Source: Rhodopirellula europaea 6C (GTDB lineage: Bacteria; Planctomycetota; Planctomycetia; Pirellulales; Pirellulaceae). From it: a stretch of DNA of 64,000 nucleotides. The notes below the pieces were generated by a model that searched no databases, was not told where the DNA came from, and worked only from the letters and a program-made list of their open reading frames with translations. The position numbers and the translations under genes were made by a program. The stretch lies in assembly GCF_000338295.1 (NCBI RefSeq), contig NZ_ANMO01000120.1:186001-250000 (forward strand). Direction: 5' to 3'. Of this stretch, positions 52,152 to 63,819 are shown in pieces (positions within the stretch are counted from its first letter, which is position 1; every line of letters starts with the position of its first letter).

Positions 52152-55100
52152 TCAATCATCAATCGACGCCGGCGGCGGTCCCGATGAAAACCAGGGGTAA
52201 ATCGCGGGGATGACGACGCAAGTTAGCAGTGTGCTGGTGATCAGGCCACCAATGACGACCGTAGCGAGTGGGCGTTGCAGTTCCGCACCGTCGCTGGTGG
52301 ACAGTGCCATCGGCAGGAATCCCAAACTGGCAACCATCGCGGTCATCAGCACCGGACGCAATCGATCGTCGGCTGCCCTTCGCGCTGCTTCCCGAGCTCC
52401 CGTGCCAGCGACGCGGTGATGCTCGGCATCACTCACCCATACCAATCCGTTCAAGACCGCCACACCAAACAGTGCGATGAACCCCACTCCTGCTGCAATG
52501 CTGAATGGCATGTCACGAAGCATCAACGCGAACACGCCACCACTGGCGGCGATGGGCACACACAAAAAGATTAGCGAGGCCAACGAAGCGGAATTGAAGG
52601 ACGTGAAGAGCAATAAGAAGATCACAATCAAGATGATTGGTGTGATGATGGCCAAACGACGACTGGCGGATTGAAGGTTCTCAAAATCACCTCCCCACCG
52701 CAGTTCGTATCCTGTCGGCAAAGTCACATCGCGAGCCACGATGGACTGTGCTTCGGTAACAAACGAAGCGACATCGCGTCCCCGCACGTTCGCTGAAACA
52801 AACGTACGTCGGCGGCCGTCTTCGTGCTCCACCGTTGGTGGCGTTTGTTCCAACTGAATGCTGGCAACCTCATACATCGGCACCGGCTTTCCTCCCGCCA
52901 AAGCAACGGGCAACTGTTTGAGCAACTCAACATCGCTCCGCCAATTTTCCGGAAGACGCACCTGGATCGGGAATCTCGCTCGGCCGTCGATCACTTCGCC
53001 CACCGGACGGCCGCCCAATGCATCCACCACATCCATGACTTGCTGAGCGTCGATACCATACCTGGCCAACGCTTCTCTGTCAGGTTCGATCGTCAACGTC
53101 GCGAGTGTCGATTGAATATCGGCCTTCACATCGGCTGATCCTGGGACACTGCGAAGCGCACGTTCGATTTGCTTGGCTTTCGTTGAAAGAGTCTCCAGGT
53201 CGTCTCCATACAAAAGCACCGCCACATCCGCCTTCACTCCCGCAACCAACTCGTCAACACGCATCTCGATGGGCTGCGTGAATCCAAAGGCGACGCCAGG
53301 AACGCTCTCGGAAAGCATCGCTTCCATCTCCGTGATCAGCTCTTCCCGCGATTTAGCCGTCGGCCATGTATCCGGCGGATTCAACATCACCCACACATCG
53401 CTTTGGTGAACCCCCATGACATCATTGGCTATTTCAGGTCGGCCGGTTTTTGTGAACACCGTTTTGACTTCCGGCAACTTCAACAATTCTGTTTCGACTC
53501 GCCGTGCCATGATCTCGGCACCTTCCAATGATGCACTGGGCAACCGGACCGCTTCGACCAACAGATCGCCTTCGTTGAGTCGCGGCATGAACTCGGCACC
53601 CAGATTCAGAGCCACGGGAATGCTGATCGCAAAAACACATGCGGCGACCAATGCGGTGACTGCGGGCGACTCGATCGCACGACCGACCAAAGGCAAGTAG
53701 ACCTTCTTCAACATCCGAATCGGCCACAGATCGTGATCATGCGGATTCTTTGGAAGTGCCAACGACGCGAGCGCAGGCATCAACGTCATCGACAAAATGA
53801 AGGAGCCGAAAAGAGCCAAGAGGACAGTCATCGCCATCGGACGAAACATTTTCCCTTCGGTTCCTTCGAGCAACAGCACGGGGACATAGACCACCGCGAT
53901 GATCAGTTCACCAAACATTGTTGGCCCGCGAACTTCCATGCAGGCATCTCGGATCGTCGCCAATCGCGTCGTGGCTTTTCCTATCAATTGCGAATGTCTC
54001 GGCGGGCTGCCAGCCTCCGCTTCGCCGGAGGCCTCCTCATCACCCGATTCTCTTTGCGATAGTCGTCGAACACAGTTTTCGACCATAATGACGGAGGAAT
54101 CCACGATCAATCCAAAGTCGATCGCACCCAAACTCATCAAACTCGCGGAGATCCCCATAGCCAACATCATGTTGGACGCAAACAACATCGACAGCGGAAT
54201 GGCCAACGCAACGATGATTCCAGCTCGAAGACTGCCCAACGTGATCAGCAAAACGATCGCAACCAACGCCCCGCCTTCGAGCAGGTTCTTCATCACAGTG
54301 TGAAGCGTCCGATTGATCAAATCTTCCCGGTCATAAATCACGTCCAAGGTCACATCGTCGGGAAGCGTCGCCTGCACCTCTGCAATCCGTTCTTTGATGC
54401 GTCCAACGACTTCGCGAGAATTCTCGCCGATGCGCATCATCACCATTCCCGTCACCGCTTCGCCCCTGCCGTCTCGACTGACCGCCCCCTGGCGCGACAT
54501 TGGTTCGATGATGACGTCGGCGACGTCAGACAACAGCAACGGCGACCCGTTCTCTCCCCGCCGTAAAACGATGCTCTTCAGATCATCCACGCTGGTGAGC
54601 AATGCCTGCCCGCGAATGAATCGCTGCTCGTCATGGTGAATGACATAGCCACCACCGGCGTTCGCATTGGCCGCTTCGATTCGCGAATAAAGTTCCTCCA
54701 GAGTCAAACCTTGATCCATCAAGCCATCTGGGTCAGGCCGCACCTCGAACGTTTTGTAGAAACCTCCCATCACATTGATCTCGGTCACACCGCTGACTTC
54801 CTTCAACTTCGGTGCGATTTCCCAATCGAGCAACGTCCGCAGCTCCATCGGCGTTTTTAGTTCGCTACGAACTTCAAACTGCAGGATCTCTCCCAGCGCG
54901 GTGGTCATTGGTCCAACTTCAGGCGGGCCGTAGCCTTCCGGCAAACTCGCCGCGGCTGCCGACAACCTCGAACCAACTTGTTGGTTGGCGAAGTACACAT
55001 CGGTTCCTTCATTGAAAACGATCGTGATGACCGACAATCCAAATTTAGAAACGCTGCGAACTTCGTCGACGTCAGGCAGTCCGCCCATCGACCATTCAAT

Positions 55101-55304
55101 TGGATAGGTCACTTGCCGTTCGACCTCGACCGGCGGCAATGACCCGGCCGACGTGATGACAGTGACTTGCGTGTTGGTCAAATCGGGAACCGCGTCAATC
55201 GGAAGCAACAATGCGCTGCGGATCCCCAAACCTGCCATCAACAGAGTGCCGATGATGACCAAGAAACGATTCTGGAGCGAAAACTCAATCAGTCGCTGAA
55301 GCAT
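52152..55304 (-). CDS. CusA-type heavy-metal RND efflux permease
   Basis: About 1050 residues, standard RND architecture, with no insertion in the porter domain. TM4 reads LGAIDFGLIVDSSVIMVENC, the heavy-metal (HME) pattern with the proton-relay Asp residues. The C-terminal motifs GGLITSTLLTCVVIPAIYPW and RLRPVLMTAMVASLGFLPMA also fit the family. ATG at 55304 is preferred; a GTG at 55310 overlapping the adaptor stop is possible. Together with the adaptor and the CzcI-like protein it forms a second metal-export operon distinct from that at 17-23 kb. Ion not identified. Confidence 0.9.
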   Translation of the reverse strand: MLQRLIEFSLQNRFLVIIGTLLMAGLGIRSALLLPIDAVPDLTNTQVTVITSAGSLPPVEVERQVTYPIEWSMGGLPDVDEVRSVSKFGLSVITIVFNEGTDVYFANQQVGSRLSAAAASLPEGYGPPEVGPMTTALGEILQFEVRSELKTPMELRTLLDWEIAPKLKEVSGVTEINVMGGFYKTFEVRPDPDGLMDQGLTLEELYSRIEAANANAGGGYVIHHDEQRFIRGQALLTSVDDLKSIVLRRGENGSPLLLSDVADVIIEPMSRQGAVSRDGRGEAVTGMVMMRIGENSREVVGRIKERIAEVQATLPDDVTLDVIYDREDLINRTLHTVMKNLLEGGALVAIVLLITLGSLRAGIIVALAIPLSMLFASNMMLAMGISASLMSLGAIDFGLIVDSSVIMVENCVRRLSQRESGDEEASGEAEAGSPPRHSQLIGKATTRLATIRDACMEVRGPTMFGELIIAVVYVPVLLLEGTEGKMFRPMAMTVLLALFGSFILSMTLMPALASLALPKNPHDHDLWPIRMLKKVYLPLVGRAIESPAVTALVAACVFAISIPVALNLGAEFMPRLNEGDLLVEAVRLPSASLEGAEIMARRVETELLKLPEVKTVFTKTGRPEIANDVMGVHQSDVWVMLNPPDTWPTAKSREELITEMEAMLSESVPGVAFGFTQPIEMRVDELVAGVKADVAVLLYGDDLETLSTKAKQIERALRSVPGSADVKADIQSTLATLTIEPDREALARYGIDAQQVMDVVDALGGRPVGEVIDGRARFPIQVRLPENWRSDVELLKQLPVALAGGKPVPMYEVASIQLEQTPPTVEHEDGRRRTFVSANVRGRDVASFVTEAQSIVARDVTLPTGYELRWGGDFENLQSASRRLAIITPIILIVIFLLLFTSFNSASLASLIFLCVPIAASGGVFALMLRDMPFSIAAGVGFIALFGVAVLNGLVWVSDAEHHRVAGTGAREAARRAADDRLRPVLMTAMVASLGFLPMALSTSDGAELQRPLATVVIGGLITSTLLTCVVIPAIYPWFSSGPPPASIDD

Positions 55305-55306
55305 GA

Positions 55307-56782
55307 TCACTCCTCTCCTTCCAGCAGCAGTTCGCTCTTGAGAGCAAATGCACCGGAGACAACGACCGACTGCCCCTCCGTCAAACCTTTTCGGATTTCG
55401 ACCATGCCGCCGCTCTGCGAACCAGCCTCGACGGAGACCGATTCAAAACCGTCTTCACTGACAACAAACACACTCGTCTGCCCATCCAGATCCACCACGG
55501 CGGTCTCAGCAACAAGAATCACATCGTGCAGCGTTTCCATTGGCACAGCCATGCGAGCGAACAAGCCCGGTCGAAAGTTGCCCTTGGAGTTGTCGATCTT
55601 TGCGATCAAAGGAATCGCCCCCGACGCCGGATCCACTTGTCGACCGATGGTGTAAACCGTGGCGGGCTGCGGAGGCATGTTCATGGCGGGAGTGCTCACC
55701 ATCACAACGTCCCCTTCGCTGACATGAATGGACTCCCAATCGCGTCCGCGAATGTCCGCTTCGACCCACAAGCTCGATGTGTCGGCTATCACGAACAACT
55801 CGTCCTGGGCCGTTACTCGCTCCGAAGCCGAGAACGTCTTGCTTTCGACGGTGCCATCCAGTGGAGACTGAAGTGTTAGCCGAGATACATCGGTTTCGTT
55901 GGGCGAAACATCCAACCCACCCATCGAATCCGCCAGTGTCCCCAGCAAGGTGCCAAGCGTTTGTTTCGCGATCCGCAGTCGACGTTCCGCTTCGTTCCGT
56001 TTGGCTTCGGCTTGAATCATCGATTGGCGAGTTTGGAACAGCGATTGTTCGATGGCCGCCTCAAGCGCCGCTTCGCTTTGCTGCCGATCACTTTGCCGTT
56101 CCTGAACGACTCGACCACTGATCGCACCGCTGTCACCAAGATTACCAACCGAACGCGAAAGCTGGTTGGCAAGGTTTGATTTGCTGTACATCGTCAGCAA
56201 TTGACCGCCAAATTCGCCGATCGTTTTGTCTTTCAATGATTGCTTGATCGCATCAATCGCTTCCCCGGCGCGAATCCGTTTGGCCAGATCCGAGACGCCA
56301 GCATGGATGTCGGCTTCCCAGCGATAGGTTTCTTGGGCGAGGTCCAACTTTGCCTTCTCGCTCAAAATTTGGTTTCGAGCCGTTCCGATGGACGGACTGC
56401 GAAGCACCGCGACGGGTTGCCCACGATCAACCGAATCTCCAGGTTTGACCAAGATGGATTCCAACACACCATCTGTTGGCGTCCGCAATGAAACGTGACG
56501 CGTGTCGTCGTAAGCGAATCGAGCCGGCAAAGTCCGTGTGACGACGAGCGTCCCACGCTGAACTTCTTCCCAACGAATTCCAGCGACGTCGATCTTTCGA
56601 TCGCTCAGACGAATTCGTTGTGCGTCGTCGAAGTTACTCGTCGGCGACGCCTCGCGGTCAGCTTCGTCACTTGCGGAAGCATCGACCTGAATTGTTCCCA
56701 ATTCGCGGTTCTTTAAATTCCAGGCAGCGGCGACCACGACGAGTAGCGCAACGAGCGCGCTCAACCAATATTTTGATTTCAT
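55307..56782 (-). CDS. RND efflux periplasmic adaptor (CusB/CzcB type)
   Basis: 491 residues: an anchor/signal (KYWLSALVALLVVVAAAWNL), lipoyl halves (DGVLESILVKPGDSVDRGQP and GTVESKTFSASERVTAQDE), a long helical hairpin with Gln/Arg-rich coils (VVQERQSDRQQSEAALEAAI), a beta-barrel (FRPGLFARMAVPMETLHDVI) and a membrane-proximal end. It links the CusA-type pump to an outer-membrane channel not encoded here. It follows the CzcI-like gene, with a strong hairpin in between. Confidence 0.88.
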   Translation of the reverse strand: MKSKYWLSALVALLVVVAAAWNLKNRELGTIQVDASASDEADREASPTSNFDDAQRIRLSDRKIDVAGIRWEEVQRGTLVVTRTLPARFAYDDTRHVSLRTPTDGVLESILVKPGDSVDRGQPVAVLRSPSIGTARNQILSEKAKLDLAQETYRWEADIHAGVSDLAKRIRAGEAIDAIKQSLKDKTIGEFGGQLLTMYSKSNLANQLSRSVGNLGDSGAISGRVVQERQSDRQQSEAALEAAIEQSLFQTRQSMIQAEAKRNEAERRLRIAKQTLGTLLGTLADSMGGLDVSPNETDVSRLTLQSPLDGTVESKTFSASERVTAQDELFVIADTSSLWVEADIRGRDWESIHVSEGDVVMVSTPAMNMPPQPATVYTIGRQVDPASGAIPLIAKIDNSKGNFRPGLFARMAVPMETLHDVILVAETAVVDLDGQTSVFVVSEDGFESVSVEAGSQSGGMVEIRKGLTEGQSVVVSGAFALKSELLLEGEE

Positions 56783-58440: not shown

Positions 58441-59613
58441 TCATCGGCTGACGGGAACGTAGGCGAAGCCATCCGACTGCAAGTTGACGACGGCAGTCAA
58501 AGCTGAAACCGCCGTGTCGACAAACACGACCACTTCATCCGGTTTTGCTCCCGATGCAATCAACGATTGGCCACACACATACAAATCCACTCCGGCCTCG
58601 TGCAATTGATGCATCAGTTCCAGGTTCGGGTTGGTCTCTGTGCCAAACTTCGCCGCGTAGGCGTCGGAGTTCAGTACAGCCAACGTCGCTCCACCATGGA
58701 GGACCACCGCAATTTGAACTTCCGTCGGAAGTTCACCCGCACCCGCGTAGATGTTCAGATACTTCGCAACTTTCTCCAGCCCGGGATTGAGTTTGCCGGG
58801 CTCGGCACTGCTGGTTAAATCCACCAACAACTTCGCCCCAACCTTCGGTTGTTGAACCGCGTGGGGCAGTCTCACGACCTTTCCAACACCGTCGATCACC
58901 GGTGTGGTTGCTTCAAACGTCTGCTTTTCATCACCCGCTGCGTCGCTGGACTTCTCGGGGACCGGATGATTCTTCATGGCTTCGGCGAATCCCCGCTCGA
59001 CAAAACCAGAAACAGCTTTCGCGTGAGCTTGAATCAACTTCACCACGTAGGCGTCGTCGGAGGTTTCTGTCACACGAACACCTTTGTCGGTGTTCTCGTG
59101 AACCATTTTGATCTTGTCAGTGTGACGAAAGATCTCCACAAACAACGGATCTCGCATGCGAATCGGATTGGTCTCTTCGATCCGATATTCCATCCACTCG
59201 ACGTGCTCCTGAATCGCCTCAGCAATCTTCGGATCATCCGATTCGGTCACCGTTTCGACGCCGGCAGGCAACTCTTTGACCGTTCGCCGAATCGCTTCAT
59301 GGTTTTGAAGCAGGAACTGAAACACTTCATGATCAGCATCGTGCCGGTCATCATGGACAACCTGTTCGGCCGTCGGTCCGTTTCCTCCCGCTCCATTGTC
59401 TTCCACCCCATGTCGCTGGCCGTTCCTCATCCCACGGCCTCGACCAAAGCCCCGACCACCTTCTGGTCCACGTCCGGCTCGCGGCCCACGGCCAAATCCT
59501 GACCCTCGCTGGACTTCTGACTGAGCATCCCTGGAATTCTCTTGCGCGAACCCTGGCAGGCCCACTAGGAACGACAAACACCCAAACGTCATCAAGCCAA
59601 TCATTCGGTTCAT
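58441..59613 (-). CDS. DsrE-like protein with exported, Arg/Gly-rich N-terminal region
   Basis: 390 residues. A signal peptide is followed by an RGG-like low-complexity stretch (GFGRGPRAGRGPEGGRGFGR onward), an all-helical middle (VFQFLLQNHEAIRRTVKELP, EAIQEHVEWMEYRIEETN) and a C-terminal DsrE/DsrF-type domain (VQIAVVLHGGATLAVLNSD, HEAGVDLYVCGQSLIASG). The Cys in YVCGQS is the site used by DsrE-like proteins to carry sulfane sulfur. Two thirds of the protein has no familiar family. Its place at the end of the sulfur module fits a sulfur-carrier role. Confidence 0.7.
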   Translation of the reverse strand: MNRMIGLMTFGCLSFLVGLPGFAQENSRDAQSEVQRGSGFGRGPRAGRGPEGGRGFGRGRGMRNGQRHGVEDNGAGGNGPTAEQVVHDDRHDADHEVFQFLLQNHEAIRRTVKELPAGVETVTESDDPKIAEAIQEHVEWMEYRIEETNPIRMRDPLFVEIFRHTDKIKMVHENTDKGVRVTETSDDAYVVKLIQAHAKAVSGFVERGFAEAMKNHPVPEKSSDAAGDEKQTFEATTPVIDGVGKVVRLPHAVQQPKVGAKLLVDLTSSAEPGKLNPGLEKVAKYLNIYAGAGELPTEVQIAVVLHGGATLAVLNSDAYAAKFGTETNPNLELMHQLHEAGVDLYVCGQSLIASGAKPDEVVVFVDTAVSALTAVVNLQSDGFAYVPVSR

Positions 59614-59676: not shown

Positions 59677-60156
59677 CTATTCGTCTGAATTCGCGGGCAT
59701 GTGCTTCGCGATGTAGGCGGGTTCGCCCATTCGTTCCAGCAAGTCCAATTGCAGCTCCAACCAACCGGCGTGACCTTCTTCATCCACGGCAATGCGTTCG
59801 AACAACTGGCGAGTCCCGATGTCTCGGTCTTCGCTCGCTTGAATCGATGCGGTGGTGTAGAAGTCGATGGCTTCTTGCTCATCCGCCAAGTCAGATTCGA
59901 ACATCTCTTTGAGAGTCCTTGCCTGAACAGGCGTTTTCTGCATCGTCAAGTTGGGATTTCCTTTCAAGAACAAGATTCGGTTCAAGAAGTCTTCCGAGTG
60001 CCCCAATTCCTCGTGCAATTCTTCACGCATTTTGGAAGCCAACAGGCCCATGCCCCAATCGTCCAGCACGCAAGCGTGCAACTGGTATTGGTGCGTTGCC
60101 GTCAATTCCATGGCCAACGCTTTTTGCAAGTTCTCAATCGTTTGCGTTTTACTCAT
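59677..60156 (-). CDS. bfr: Bacterioferritin-like protein without haem Met
   Basis: 159 residues with the ferritin four-helix bundle. Ferroxidase ligands are present: E17, H53 (EELGHSED), ADEQEAI and DEEGHAGWLE. The haem-ligand Met of E. coli Bfr (M52, in DEMKHADR) corresponds to Leu in HEELGHSED, so haem is probably not bound there. It stores or detoxifies iron. It is 128 bp from the MBL-rhodanese gene in the same direction. A separate promoter is likely. Confidence 0.85.
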   Translation of the reverse strand: MSKTQTIENLQKALAMELTATHQYQLHACVLDDWGMGLLASKMREELHEELGHSEDFLNRILFLKGNPNLTMQKTPVQARTLKEMFESDLADEQEAIDFYTTASIQASEDRDIGTRQLFERIAVDEEGHAGWLELQLDLLERMGEPAYIAKHMPANSDE

Positions 60157-60284: not shown

Positions 60285-61709
60285 TCAGCTCGACAGAGCC
60301 ACCGTCTCTTTCTGCTTCGGCAAATCCGCTTGTACCCAAGCCTTGTAGCCGCCCTCCATGTTGATGACGTCTTTCACGCCATTCGCTTGAAGAACGCTGG
60401 CCGCAATCGATGATCGGGCACCGCTCAAGCAATGGACGACGACCGTTTTGTCCTTGGGCAGTTCACTCAAACGACTTGGCAAGCGACCAAGGAAGTGGTG
60501 GCTGGCATTTTGAATGTGCCCCTCGTTCCACTCTTCGTTCGATCGAACATCAACCAGCGTCACTTGGCCCGATTCGATGCGAGGCAGCAACTCGGCCGGT
60601 TTGGCCGTCGAGTAGACCTCATTAGCTTGACCTGACGACCGCACGCGATCCGCATCAAAAGCACCGACGATCTCTTCGACACCAATTTTGTGAAGCACGC
60701 GAGCGGCTTCTTCCAGCTGTTCTGGCTTGCAGATCAAGTACGTCGGTTTGTCATAGTCGACCAACCAACCCGCCCAAGTCGCTAGCATCCCAATCGGAAT
60801 GTTGATCGCCCCCGGCACATGCCCTTTCGCAAATTCGGAAGAGGGTGCTAAATCGACGACGGTCCCTGATTTCAAAGCACCATGTAGTTCTGCTAGCTCG
60901 AGCATCTGATGATGGTGCCCTTCACCCAACACTCGAGGGCCTTCTTTGTTGACGCGTTTCATAACCGCAAAGTACTTCGGTGCCTCCGGTTGATCGGCGA
61001 GGATGTAACGAACGAAGGATTCCTCGTCGTTGTATTGCAGTGCGGGATTATTGAGTTTCTCGTAACCAACCGTCGACGAGGGAATCGCCCCCAGTCCTTT
61101 CCCACAGGCACTGCCTGCTCCGTGAGCTGGCCAAACTTGCAGGTGATCCGGCAAGGCTCGAAACCGCTTCATCGATGCAAACAGATCCCTTGCTCCTGGC
61201 TCGGATGTTCCGGCAATCCCGGCTGCCTCTTCCAGCAAATCGGGGCGACCGATGGAACCAACGAAGACGAAGTCGCCTGTAAAAATCCCCATCGGACTGG
61301 TGGCTCCACCGCCTTGGTCAGTCAAAACAAACGACAAACTCTCAGGGGTGTGACCAGGCGTGTGCATCACGTCGAACTTGATCTTACCAATCGAAAACGA
61401 ATCGCCATCGTGAAGCAATTGATTGGCGTATCCGTCGAGGTACAGATACTTCCACTCCGCGGGTCCTTCATCGGAGACGTACAGTTTGGCCCCCAGGCGA
61501 TCAGCAAGCTCCCGAGCACCGGATACATAATCCGCATGAATATGTGTCTCCGCGACAGCCGTGATTTTGAGACCTTCCCGCTCCGCTAACGCCAAATAGC
61601 CGGCGATGTCGCGACCTGGATCGATCACGATGGCTTCGCGGGCACGCTGGCATCCGACCAGATAGGACGCGTGAGCGAGTTTGTCATCATAGAAATACTT
61701 GAGCAACAT
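60285..61709 (-). CDS. MBL-fold hydrolase with two rhodanese domains (persulfide dioxygenase type)
   Basis: 474 residues. The MBL domain (~1-240) carries ETHIHADYVSG, HTPGHTPESL and a GDFVFVGSIGRPDL motif, the iron-binding set of ETHE1/BlhA-type persulfide dioxygenases, in which the HxHxDH motif is altered to HIHADY as is common in the bacterial fused forms. Two rhodanese domains follow; the second has VVHCLSGARSS with the reactive Cys, whereas the first lacks a typical C-x5-R loop. The expected reaction oxidises glutathione persulfide to sulfite. It sits in the operon with TauE, rhodanese-DUF2892 and ArsR. Confidence 0.88.
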   Translation of the reverse strand: MLLKYFYDDKLAHASYLVGCQRAREAIVIDPGRDIAGYLALAEREGLKITAVAETHIHADYVSGARELADRLGAKLYVSDEGPAEWKYLYLDGYANQLLHDGDSFSIGKIKFDVMHTPGHTPESLSFVLTDQGGGATSPMGIFTGDFVFVGSIGRPDLLEEAAGIAGTSEPGARDLFASMKRFRALPDHLQVWPAHGAGSACGKGLGAIPSSTVGYEKLNNPALQYNDEESFVRYILADQPEAPKYFAVMKRVNKEGPRVLGEGHHHQMLELAELHGALKSGTVVDLAPSSEFAKGHVPGAINIPIGMLATWAGWLVDYDKPTYLICKPEQLEEAARVLHKIGVEEIVGAFDADRVRSSGQANEVYSTAKPAELLPRIESGQVTLVDVRSNEEWNEGHIQNASHHFLGRLPSRLSELPKDKTVVVHCLSGARSSIAASVLQANGVKDVINMEGGYKAWVQADLPKQKETVALSS

Positions 61710-61738: not shown

Positions 61739-62563
61739 CTACAAAACCGTGGATTTAACAAGAACGAACGTCGCGACCAACACAACCGCGATTGAGAAAA
61801 CTTTCTGAAGCGTGGGACCTTCCAAACGTTTCGCAACGATCCCGCCCAACCACATCCCCACGAATCCGCCCGTCGTGAACAACAACGCAGTTGAGATGGA
61901 AAGTTCATTACCACTGAGCAGATGAGAAGCGACTCCAGAGACGCTGACCAAGACAATGACAAACAACGACGTCCCGACCGCTCGGTGAATCGCCATGCCG
62001 CTGAACAAGACCAATGCGGGCACGATGACAAACCCTCCACCGACACCAAACAAACCTGAAAGCACTCCCGTCATCAGTCCCACCAGAACGAGCAACCGTG
62101 CACACCTCGATGTCAAACGAAGTGTGCCATCTTCGTCACGCTGACAGGCACTGCGGTCGCGTCCCGTGCTGGTTTCGCTGTTGCACACGCCGCTGGCAAT
62201 GCTTGGATCTTTTGTTTTGGCCCACATTCGGTACGCAACAACAAGCATCAACACCGCGAACATCAACAACAACGCCGTCTCCGGCACCAACGACGACAAA
62301 TACGATCCGATCGGGGCACCCACCATTCCAGCAACCGCGAATAACAACCCGGTCCGCAATTCCACTTCGCCATGAATCAATCTTGGGACCGCACCAAACA
62401 GCGCGGTACCACCAACCGATGCCAATGAGATCCCAACGGCTTCACGTGGCGCGATCGACATGCCATAGACCAACAAGGGCACCGCAAAAACCCCGCCGCC
62501 CCCGCCGGTAAGCCCGAGAGCAAAACCGACGACGCAGCCGAACAAGATTGCTAGACCGAACAT
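61739..62563 (-). CDS. TauE/SafE-type sulfite or sulfonate exporter
   Basis: About 274 residues, eight membrane helices. TauE/SafE hallmarks: FALGLTGGGGGVFAVPLLVY in the N-half and VLSGLFGVGGGFVIVPALVL in the C-half, each with a GGGGG/GGG motif in an inverted repeat. Such proteins export sulfite or organosulfonates. Chosen ATG at 62563 has GGAG 10 nt upstream and overlaps the rhodanese gene by 13 bp. In the operon it would remove sulfite made by the MBL enzyme. Confidence 0.85.
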   Translation of the reverse strand: MFGLAILFGCVVGFALGLTGGGGGVFAVPLLVYGMSIAPREAVGISLASVGGTALFGAVPRLIHGEVELRTGLLFAVAGMVGAPIGSYLSSLVPETALLLMFAVLMLVVAYRMWAKTKDPSIASGVCNSETSTGRDRSACQRDEDGTLRLTSRCARLLVLVGLMTGVLSGLFGVGGGFVIVPALVLFSGMAIHRAVGTSLFVIVLVSVSGVASHLLSGNELSISTALLFTTGGFVGMWLGGIVAKRLEGPTLQKVFSIAVVLVATFVLVKSTVL

Positions 62564-63096
62564 GACCCTGAATCTCCGCATCGATTCCAGGGCATCTTGG
62601 AAAGCATCATGCCCATCCCGCACGTATCAGTGATTCCGGCAAACATTAAACCGGCACCGATGAAGGCAGACAGCCCGATAAAGTAGGGATGAACGAAGAA
62701 GCCCAGGACCGCACCCAGCAACGCCAGAAACCCCGCCAAGATCCGAACCTGACGTTCGAGTGACATTGCCTTCTGACCTCGGACGACCGGCAACCCAGCG
62801 GACACCCATGCGTTGGTCCCACCATCCACGTTCACAACATTCTGCACGCCCGCCTGCATGAACTTCTGCACGGCTTTGCTCGATCGATTTCCACTCTTGC
62901 AAATGACATAGATCGGCTCGCCGCTTCCGCTTTGCATGCTCTGCGCCACCGCCTTTGGATCCAATGAATCCAGAGGAACACTGACCGCCCCGGAGGCATG
63001 CACTTCGCGATACTCCGTTGGCATCCGAACATCGACCAAATCGACGCTGGTGCTGTTCTGCTTTTGGGCGAGTTCTTGAACTGTGATTGACTGCAT
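62551..63096 (-). CDS. Rhodanese-DUF2892 membrane protein (YgaP-like)
   Basis: 181 residues. N-terminal rhodanese (~1-105) with VDLVDVRMPTEYREVHASGA and VICKSGNRSSKAV, where Cys is the sulfur-carrying residue. C-terminal DUF2892 with two helices (RILAGFLALLGAVLGFFVHP then FIGLSAFIGAGLMFAGITDT), ending in a Cys-containing tail. E. coli YgaP has the same layout. It probably moves sulfane sulfur near the membrane. ATG at 63096. An ArsR-type site stands 40-63 bp upstream. Confidence 0.85.
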   Translation of the reverse strand: MQSITVQELAQKQNSTSVDLVDVRMPTEYREVHASGAVSVPLDSLDPKAVAQSMQSGSGEPIYVICKSGNRSSKAVQKFMQAGVQNVVNVDGGTNAWVSAGLPVVRGQKAMSLERQVRILAGFLALLGAVLGFFVHPYFIGLSAFIGAGLMFAGITDTCGMGMMLSKMPWNRCGDSGSCSV

Positions 63097-63135: not shown

Positions 63136-63159
63136 AAACCTCGAGATGCGACGATATGT
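63136..63159 (-). promoter_or_regulatory. ArsR-type operator candidate before the rhodanese operon
   Basis: On the minus strand this 24-bp element starts ACATATCGTC and ends CGAGGTTT. The copy before the ArsR gene is identical at 21 of 24 positions. It sits 40-63 bp above the rhodanese ATG, where a repressor would act. Confidence 0.65.
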
Positions 63160-63206
63160 CAAGTTAAAAAAAGGACGACCATTCGTCCCGTCAATTTGTA
63201 TTGCTT

Positions 63207-63539
63207 CTAAGACGCCTGGAAACGTCCTTCGATGCAGGCCATCAGTTGCTCCAAATGAGACTCAGCGACTTGATAATACACTTTGCGTCCGTCTCGCTCG
63301 CTGGTCAGAAAGCCACAACGCTGCAACAACCGCAAATGGTCCGAGCCAACGTTGTTCTGGATCTCGCAATCCGAAGCCAGTTCGCCAACCGTGTATCGAC
63401 CGTGCAACAACATCTGAACGATTCGCAAACGAACCGGATGAGCGAGGACCTTCAAACATTCCGCGGCTTGTGCAAAGTCACTCACCGTGCCGGGCGGTTT
63501 TGACGGAAGCTCGTTCCTGGGTTTTGATTTACTGTTCAA
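63207..63539 (-). CDS. ArsR/SmtB-family regulator
   Basis: 110 residues, TTG start supported by GGGGAG 8 nt upstream. The winged helix reads AECLKVLAHPVRLRIVQMLL, then LASDCEIQNNVGSDHLRLLQ and CGFLTSERDGRKVYYQV. Four Cys (28, 58, 75, 102) could bind metal, persulfide or a thiol reagent, like SqrR/BigR or CmtR members, although the position of their key Cys pair does not clearly match. It heads the sulfur cluster and is preceded by a copy of the operator found before the rhodanese operon, so autoregulation is likely. Confidence 0.85.
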   Translation of the reverse strand: MNSKSKPRNELPSKPPGTVSDFAQAAECLKVLAHPVRLRIVQMLLHGRYTVGELASDCEIQNNVGSDHLRLLQRCGFLTSERDGRKVYYQVAESHLEQLMACIEGRFQAS

Positions 63540-63570
63540 CTTTGTTCTCCCCTGTTTCTTACTTACTCAA

Positions 63571-63594
63571 ACATATCGTCACATCACGAGGTGT
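63571..63594 (+). promoter_or_regulatory. ArsR-type operator candidate before the ArsR gene
   Basis: An imperfect palindrome with symmetric blocks ACA-n2-TCGT and ACGA-n2-TGT, 32-55 bp above the ArsR start. It is 21/24 identical, in opposite orientation, to the site before the rhodanese gene. Confidence 0.65.
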
Positions 63595-63819
63595 CAACCA
63601 TTCAATCTTGAGATTTTCCCAACAACGATGGCTTCAGCAACAAATCCATCGCGAGACCTGGGCCCACGTGCCCGGAAACTCCCGTTTTTCAAGCCACAAG
63701 ACGCTTCACCGACGGTCAATGTATTTGGGGTTTCCCCACATTTCCGCGACCGATTCTGCAATCATTCGTGCCTCTGAACCTGACACTTTCGAAACAGCAA
63801 TCTGAAACCTGAATTGGCC

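Follow-up and report, generated by a model that had tools for sequence, protein, structure and literature searches.

The BigR operons of Xylella and Agrobacterium hold genes encoding Blh and TauE-type proteins. TsoR, to judge from the names, is linked to the rhodanese/DsbD protein TsoB. In A. baumannii, BigR is reported to repress an operon that encodes YeeE/YedE-type membrane proteins along with a persulfide dioxygenase (PMC7315123), and further persulfide-sensing ArsR proteins are dealt with in three other papers (PMC10509353; PMC12423496; PMC9774250). The known ArsR persulfide sensors are reported to carry one pair of cysteines, located in helices 2 and 5 (PMC10509353; PMC12423496), and the pair of YgaV consists of Cys31 and Cys98 (PMC9774250). 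No paper on ArsR, persulfide or sulfide oxidation in Planctomycetes or Rhodopirellula was found among the open-licence PMC papers.

The ArsR protein described here has in common with BigR, SqrR, YgaV, HlyU and SoxR the ArsR fold and a tie to sulfur genes. It is encoded in a stretch of 64,000 nucleotides of Rhodopirellula europaea 6C, called the window below. Judging from sequence comparisons, the putative operator and its second copy are real, and the regulator is of a known kind, with candidate sensor cysteines and an operator that are different. The features of the window are as follows.

63571–63594: candidate operator site 1, a palindrome, ACATATCGTCACATCACGAGGTGT on the plus strand, upstream of arsR (pattern match, same placement in relatives)
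63570–63597, minus strand: predicted core promoter of arsR (TTGACA-16-TATGTT), which site 1 overlaps from the -35 to the -10 element
63207–63539, minus strand: arsR, 110 aa, TTG start, with C28, C58, C75 and C102
63172–63189, minus strand: terminator-like hairpin after arsR
63166–63172, minus strand: seven consecutive T on the coding strand, separated from the downstream site 2 by 6 nt and conserved in relatives
63136–63159: candidate operator site 2, ACATATCGTCGCATCTCGAGGTTT on the minus strand, upstream of the rhodanese-TauE-MBL operon (pattern match, placement in relatives)
62551–63096, minus strand: rhodanese with YgaP-like transmembrane helices (rhodanese-TM)
61739–62572, minus strand: TauE/SafE-type exporter (start taken as the ATG at 62572; in the longest open reading frame, it is the GTG at 62623)
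60285–61709, minus strand: metallo-beta-lactamase (MBL) fold with two rhodanese stretches
59677–60156, minus strand: bacterioferritin-like protein (bfr model, 113.3 bits; cut-off, 125.55), possibly within the same operon
58441–59613, minus strand: protein with a C-terminal DsrE domain, probably exported, possibly encoded by the last gene of the operon
52152–56782, minus strand: genes of an RND efflux pump (ACR_tran-type) and a CusB/HlyD-type membrane-fusion protein

Two Matching Sites Flank the arsR Gene

An earlier note had reported one site before the ArsR gene and another before the rhodanese-TauE-MBL operon. The observation is real: both matching sites were confirmed, exactly where they had been placed. 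When site 2 is read on the plus strand and site 1 is reverse-complemented, the two are identical at 21 of 24 bases, as the note had counted. In 300 first-order resamplings of these two intergenic regions, the best-matching pair of 24-mers agreed at 13 to 18 bases. The opposite orientation of the sites, also pointed out in the note, is true by strand and has little meaning for a palindrome. The palindromic core it had proposed, ACAnnTCGTn6ACGAnnTGT, is exact at site 1 and occurs with two mismatches at site 2, which also differs from the symmetric consensus at four positions (counted by eye) and is thus the weaker copy in the window.

By itself, the core pattern is common. With up to three mismatches allowed, it was matched 6 times in the window vs. 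2.79 times expected, 8 of 100 shuffles giving equally many matches. A looser pattern gave 205 matches vs. 154 with the reversed pattern. Conservation in relatives was therefore examined, and the proof of the sites lies in repeated placement and conservation rather than in a single pattern. A third match, located inside the TauE gene (62102–62125, one mismatch to the core), was rejected as a chance occurrence: it is unconserved, the nearest relative (L063) keeping 9 of the 14 positions and the other aligned relatives at most 9.

Conservation of the Operator in Related Loci

The family set consisted of 101 loci, namely the window and 100 fetched loci hand-picked among the matches listed, with preference for the best ones, a spread across genera, and near-duplicates left out. 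Upstream of arsR, the best 14-position match was at least 10 in 93 of these 101 loci, vs. 34 of 495 control windows, and the majority consensus of the family operator is a 24-bp palindrome, ACATNTCGYGANNTNNCGATATAT. The core had to be refined on one point, as two columns left free by the search came out fixed in the 93 family sites (A11, 98%; T14, 95%). The flanking DNA is mostly unconserved, while the operator is conserved.

A position weight matrix was trained on the family upstream sites, with the 99th percentile of 633 control windows as the threshold. The question of whether orthologues lack the motif, put in the earlier note as a check on its proposal, was answered by its presence. Where a sulfur gene lies at most 2.5 kb downstream, as in 78 family loci, the upstream site precedes arsR in 77; where one lies within 350 bp, as in 73 loci, the second site follows arsR in 59, vs. 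10 of the 28 loci that lack so close a sulfur gene. In 14 of these 73 loci, no second site over the threshold is present. In 20 of the 101 loci, the upstream site is kept (marginally in two of them) although the 2.5 kb downstream contain no match to any of the three sulfur genes used as queries, and the regulon is therefore not the one described here in every case. Matches barely over the threshold are counted as carrying the operator in these tallies.

When the matrix was applied to another 110 loci, a site over the threshold was obtained upstream in 102, three of them marginal (L169, L209, and L231, with scores of 4.9–6.6), and downstream in 74. These loci partly repeat family contigs, and several of the 80 named loci are on the same contigs, so that the independent test is limited to the 26 loci outside the family, which come from the 30 best of 60 listed matches in the phylum sample. 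The upstream site was found in 19 and the second site in 12 of these 26 loci; the matrix search gave no upstream site in 7 and no second site in 14. The GTDB families with the site are seven in all: f1 (that of the window), f3, f10, f12, f32, f48, and f53. No site over the threshold was detected in the five f18 loci, the one f7 locus, and one of the f3 loci (L262). Because the same site recurs at the same places in so many relatives, the 24-bp site is very likely the on/off switch of the ArsR regulator.

Promoter at Site 1 and Surroundings of Site 2

The arsR core promoter of the window (one found vs. 0.3 expected in shuffles) keeps its register in relatives. The three bases preceding the arsR operator, which lie outside the search pattern, are T (98%), T (90%), and G (96%). 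Of 154 distinct sites, 124 have exact TTGACA at the left end of the operator and 142 have it with at most one differing base; at operator positions 20–25 of the same 154 sites, the commonest hexamers are TATATT (73), TATGTT (11), TATTAT (10), and TATAAT (7). This agreement with TTGACA and with a -10 hexamer is partly built in, as ACA and TGT are required at the two ends of the search pattern. The operator fills the core promoter with its 16-bp spacer, and the arrangement therefore fits repression by exclusion. Autorepression of arsR via site 1 is likely, to judge from this overlap.

Site 2 has surroundings of its own. The order there is a T-run, six freer bases, and then the operator, in which the left TCG half is followed by TC (T, 83%; C, 75%); CGA lies immediately 3' of the operator in 52 of 83 sites. 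These 83 sites are the ones followed by an annotated gene, and 67 of them have a T-run (at least 6 T of 7, positions -13 to -7). Runs this strong make up 1.4% of all 7-mers within 160 nt downstream of arsR, a figure that includes the T-runs themselves. The hairpin after arsR in the window is weak evidence by itself, since one was found and 1.0 was expected in shuffles. In relatives, 26 of the 67 T-runs have a strong hairpin next to them, vs. 16 of 67 after one shuffle each, and a terminator alone therefore does not explain the T-run, which may be an UP element or a stall site.

Site 2 might thus block readthrough from arsR at the conserved T-run, instead of covering a promoter of its own. The fixed position of the T-run, 6 nt before the site, and the small share of strong hairpins speak for such a block, as does the promoter search at site 2, in which standard and ECF-type promoters were sought, nothing firm was obtained, and a clear -10 hexamer was not found. 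On the other hand, TTGACA is present at the edge of site 2 in the window, and A-rich tracts occur at a similar distance before site 1, which is why the T-run may be an UP element and which would fit a promoter. We consider a readthrough block unlikely. The T-run, which is also kept in loci where the strong hairpin is absent, and the frequent CGA after the site are conserved, although no standard promoter fits.

The ArsR Protein and Its Cysteines

Profile matches confirmed an ArsR-type winged-helix HTH (HTH_20, 33.4, cut-off 27; HTH_5, 26.7, cut-off 22; NF033788, 77.5, cut-off 55) and place the protein in the ArsR/SmtB superfamily. The structure model (mean pLDDT, 89.9) shows the ArsR/SmtB fold, the best match being 8qkf (Z 15.8 over 94 residues, rmsd 2.0). 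Across the 101 family loci, C28 and C102 are each present in 101, C75 in 100, and C58 in 95. C28, C75, and C102 occur together in 169 of 177 distinct proteins, mostly with C58; the model places them in the first helix, directly after the recognition helix, and in the last helix, respectively. The operator is present in 163 of the 169 proteins with all three cysteines vs. 2 of the 8 others; the association (Fisher p = 6e-7) ignores kinship, and five of the six proteins lacking both C75 and the operator are close kin. In five f18 relatives (L265–L268 and L271), C75 is replaced by S, T, or A, and the operator was not found.

The sensing pair of the BigR/SqrR persulfide sensors, grouped as cluster 4 (PMC10509353), is absent from the ArsR clade of the window. 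The two cysteines of BigR align with Q42 and position 108: position 42 is Q in 171 of the 177 distinct proteins and never C, and position 108 is never C, with one gap. The NCBIfam BigR equivalog gives the protein 55.3 bits, below the cut-off of 155, and the TsoR model (NF045707), also of the ArsR/SmtB type, gives it 39.7 bits vs. a cut-off of 115. The clade is therefore BigR/SqrR-like in its setting and not a member by its sensing pair, and, because the pair is absent, persulfide is a presumptive inducer only. Tentatively, with somewhat less confidence than doubt, we suggest that this clade senses reactive sulfur via its own C28, C75, and C102, mostly together with C58, independently of the BigR/SqrR pair and with its own operator. 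If so, the ArsR superfamily would have acquired reactive-sulfur sensing at least twice, and if the inducer is persulfide, there would be a second cysteine arrangement for persulfide sensing and a regulon readable from sequence.

Sulfur Genes and the Proposed Mechanism

The regulon had been claimed to be a sulfur one, and the gene content supports this, a sulfur-handling gene being present nearby in 91 of the 101 family loci. The rhodanese-TM gene occurs in 61 of the 101, always within 350 bp of arsR. Genes of the kinds linked to BigR/SqrR-type regulators (persulfide oxidation, sulfur transport) are also found, the MBL domain in 40 loci, TauE in 37, and YeeE/YedE in 5; the rhodanese-TM and MBL counts were corrected for rhodanese cross-matches. 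Other neighbours are a disulfide-reductase cluster whose representative has a rhodanese domain (26/101), an SQR-like cluster (13/101), Bfr (13/101), and a DsrE-protein cluster (32/101). These clusters are named from one representative each, and the names SQR-like and CoA-disulfide reductase are our assumptions from Pfam domains. The MBL-rhodanese protein of the window presumably resembles a persulfide dioxygenase. It has MBL and rhodanese domains in common with Blh (NF040641), the Blh model giving 60.5 vs. a cut-off of 625 and matching with its C-terminal half only; unlike in Blh, the MBL domain comes first and the rhodanese after.

This neighbouring gene content is the main ground for proposing a sulfur compound as the inducer. 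From the sites, their conservation and placement, the promoter overlap, the conserved cysteines, and the gene content, we infer ArsR binding, repression, an inducer, and its cysteine chemistry; this explanation, with two ArsR operators, autorepression, repression of the sulfur operon, and release by a sulfur compound, is probably correct. In the proposed mechanism, the ArsR protein encoded between the two sites would bind the 24-bp palindrome as a dimer. At the arsR promoter, where the palindrome takes up the spacer and reaches into both hexamers, RNA polymerase would be shut out. A second dimer on site 2 would repress the rhodanese-TauE-MBL/rhodanese operon, possibly together with Bfr-DsrE, and a possible terminator would separate the sulfur operon from arsR. 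Persulfide or polysulfide derived from sulfide would modify C28, C75, and C102, with C58; the modified ArsR would then leave both sites, so that the sulfur-detoxifying enzymes and the exporter could be made. For sulfide and persulfide control in Planctomycetota, the locus offers a defined candidate operator and residues that may act as the sensor.

Alternatively, with operator and repressor unchanged, the three or four conserved cysteines might bind Cu(I), Cd, Hg, or As(III), and this soft metal or metalloid would be the inducer; the response of the sulfur genes would then be one to thiol damage by the metal. The regulator does belong to the ArsR/SmtB family, and SmtB, CadC, CzrA, and CmtR are likewise its relatives in sequence and fold. 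The fold Z scores of metal sensors (SmtB-type, 15.8; CadC, 15.7; CzrA, 15.6) are matched by similar ones for sulfur sensors (YgaV, 15.3; HlyU, 14.9; BigR, 14.1; SqrR, 13.9), in a search covering the listed families alone, beside which others may fit. The RND pump and CusB/HlyD-type genes of the window would also suit a metal response, and RND/MFP efflux genes lie near 5 of the 101 family loci. Against this stand the sulfur-handling genes, a gene context in which the protein differs from the metal sensors; the CXC typical of helix 3 in CXC-type ArsR metal sensors, which is absent here, with only C58 nearby; and the CmtR model, which gives 48.5 vs. a cut-off of 150. A soft-metal inducer thus appears distinctly unlikely, and a sulfur compound is the preferred one.

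Specificity of the Operator to One ArsR Clade

In 16 genomes, the matches to this ArsR protein split cleanly into 27 with 54–99% identity and 54 with at most 40%. In a control set of 39 of the 54 weaker matches from the same genomes, one upstream site was detected (L311, a marginal score of 6.3 with a threshold of 4.55) and no downstream site. The most divergent strong member of the clade (L343, 54% identity) has an upstream score of 20.8, and the second site is absent there. The operator goes with this ArsR clade, given its near-absence at the 39 other ArsR genes. The regulator forms a separate ArsR clade, present in seven GTDB families of Planctomycetota. Its distribution in the phylum is patchy, 51 of the 294 sampled genomes having a match at E ≤ 1e-18. 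The best 80 of 361 relatives are all labelled as planctomycetes, apart from one plain "bacterium," and the closest named loci among them belong to Stieleria, Rhodopirellula, Roseiconus, and similar planctomycetes.

These data also bear on the idea that a regulator other than the neighbouring ArsR binds the sites. This idea draws some support from the ten family loci in whose neighbourhood no sulfur gene was recognised: the operator is clear in 6 of them, marginal in 2, and absent in 2. Yet the site tracks this ArsR clade and not the other ArsR genes of the same genomes, it precedes the arsR paralogues of the same genome as well, and it becomes rarer with the loss of C75, albeit mostly in close kin. 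Binding by another regulator is therefore highly improbable. As for a chance resemblance or shared ancestry of functionless intergenic DNA, which the frequency of the short core might suggest, it is scarcely credible and appears already refuted by the conservation of the operator amid mostly unconserved flanks, by its occurrence outside the family, and by its rarity before other ArsR genes, unless these comparisons are artefacts.

Other Sites and arsR Genes in the Same Genome

In the 7.19-Mb genome containing the window, 28 forward and 21 reverse matches were obtained vs. 9 and 5 with the control, palindromic sites being counted on both strands. Eight of the surrounding stretches were retrieved, and two of these were inspected besides the arsR loci (C228:46139 and C14:19258); no sulfur gene was seen by eye in their lists of open reading frames. 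The strict symmetric consensus, with up to three mismatches, gave two sites, both before arsR genes (C41 and C120), and its palindromic control gave one. The arsR paralogues carrying the site are L061 (upstream and downstream) and L062 (upstream). The second arsR gene, on contig C41 (L061, also L301), is 83% identical and has operators on both sides; after it, the only match to the rhodanese-TM gene is a 54%-identical stretch. A third type of arsR, found on contig C103 (L062) and in L064, L068, L075, and L083, shows a variant operator and no second site, and adjoins a pyridine-nucleotide-disulfide-reductase-like gene on the opposite strand.
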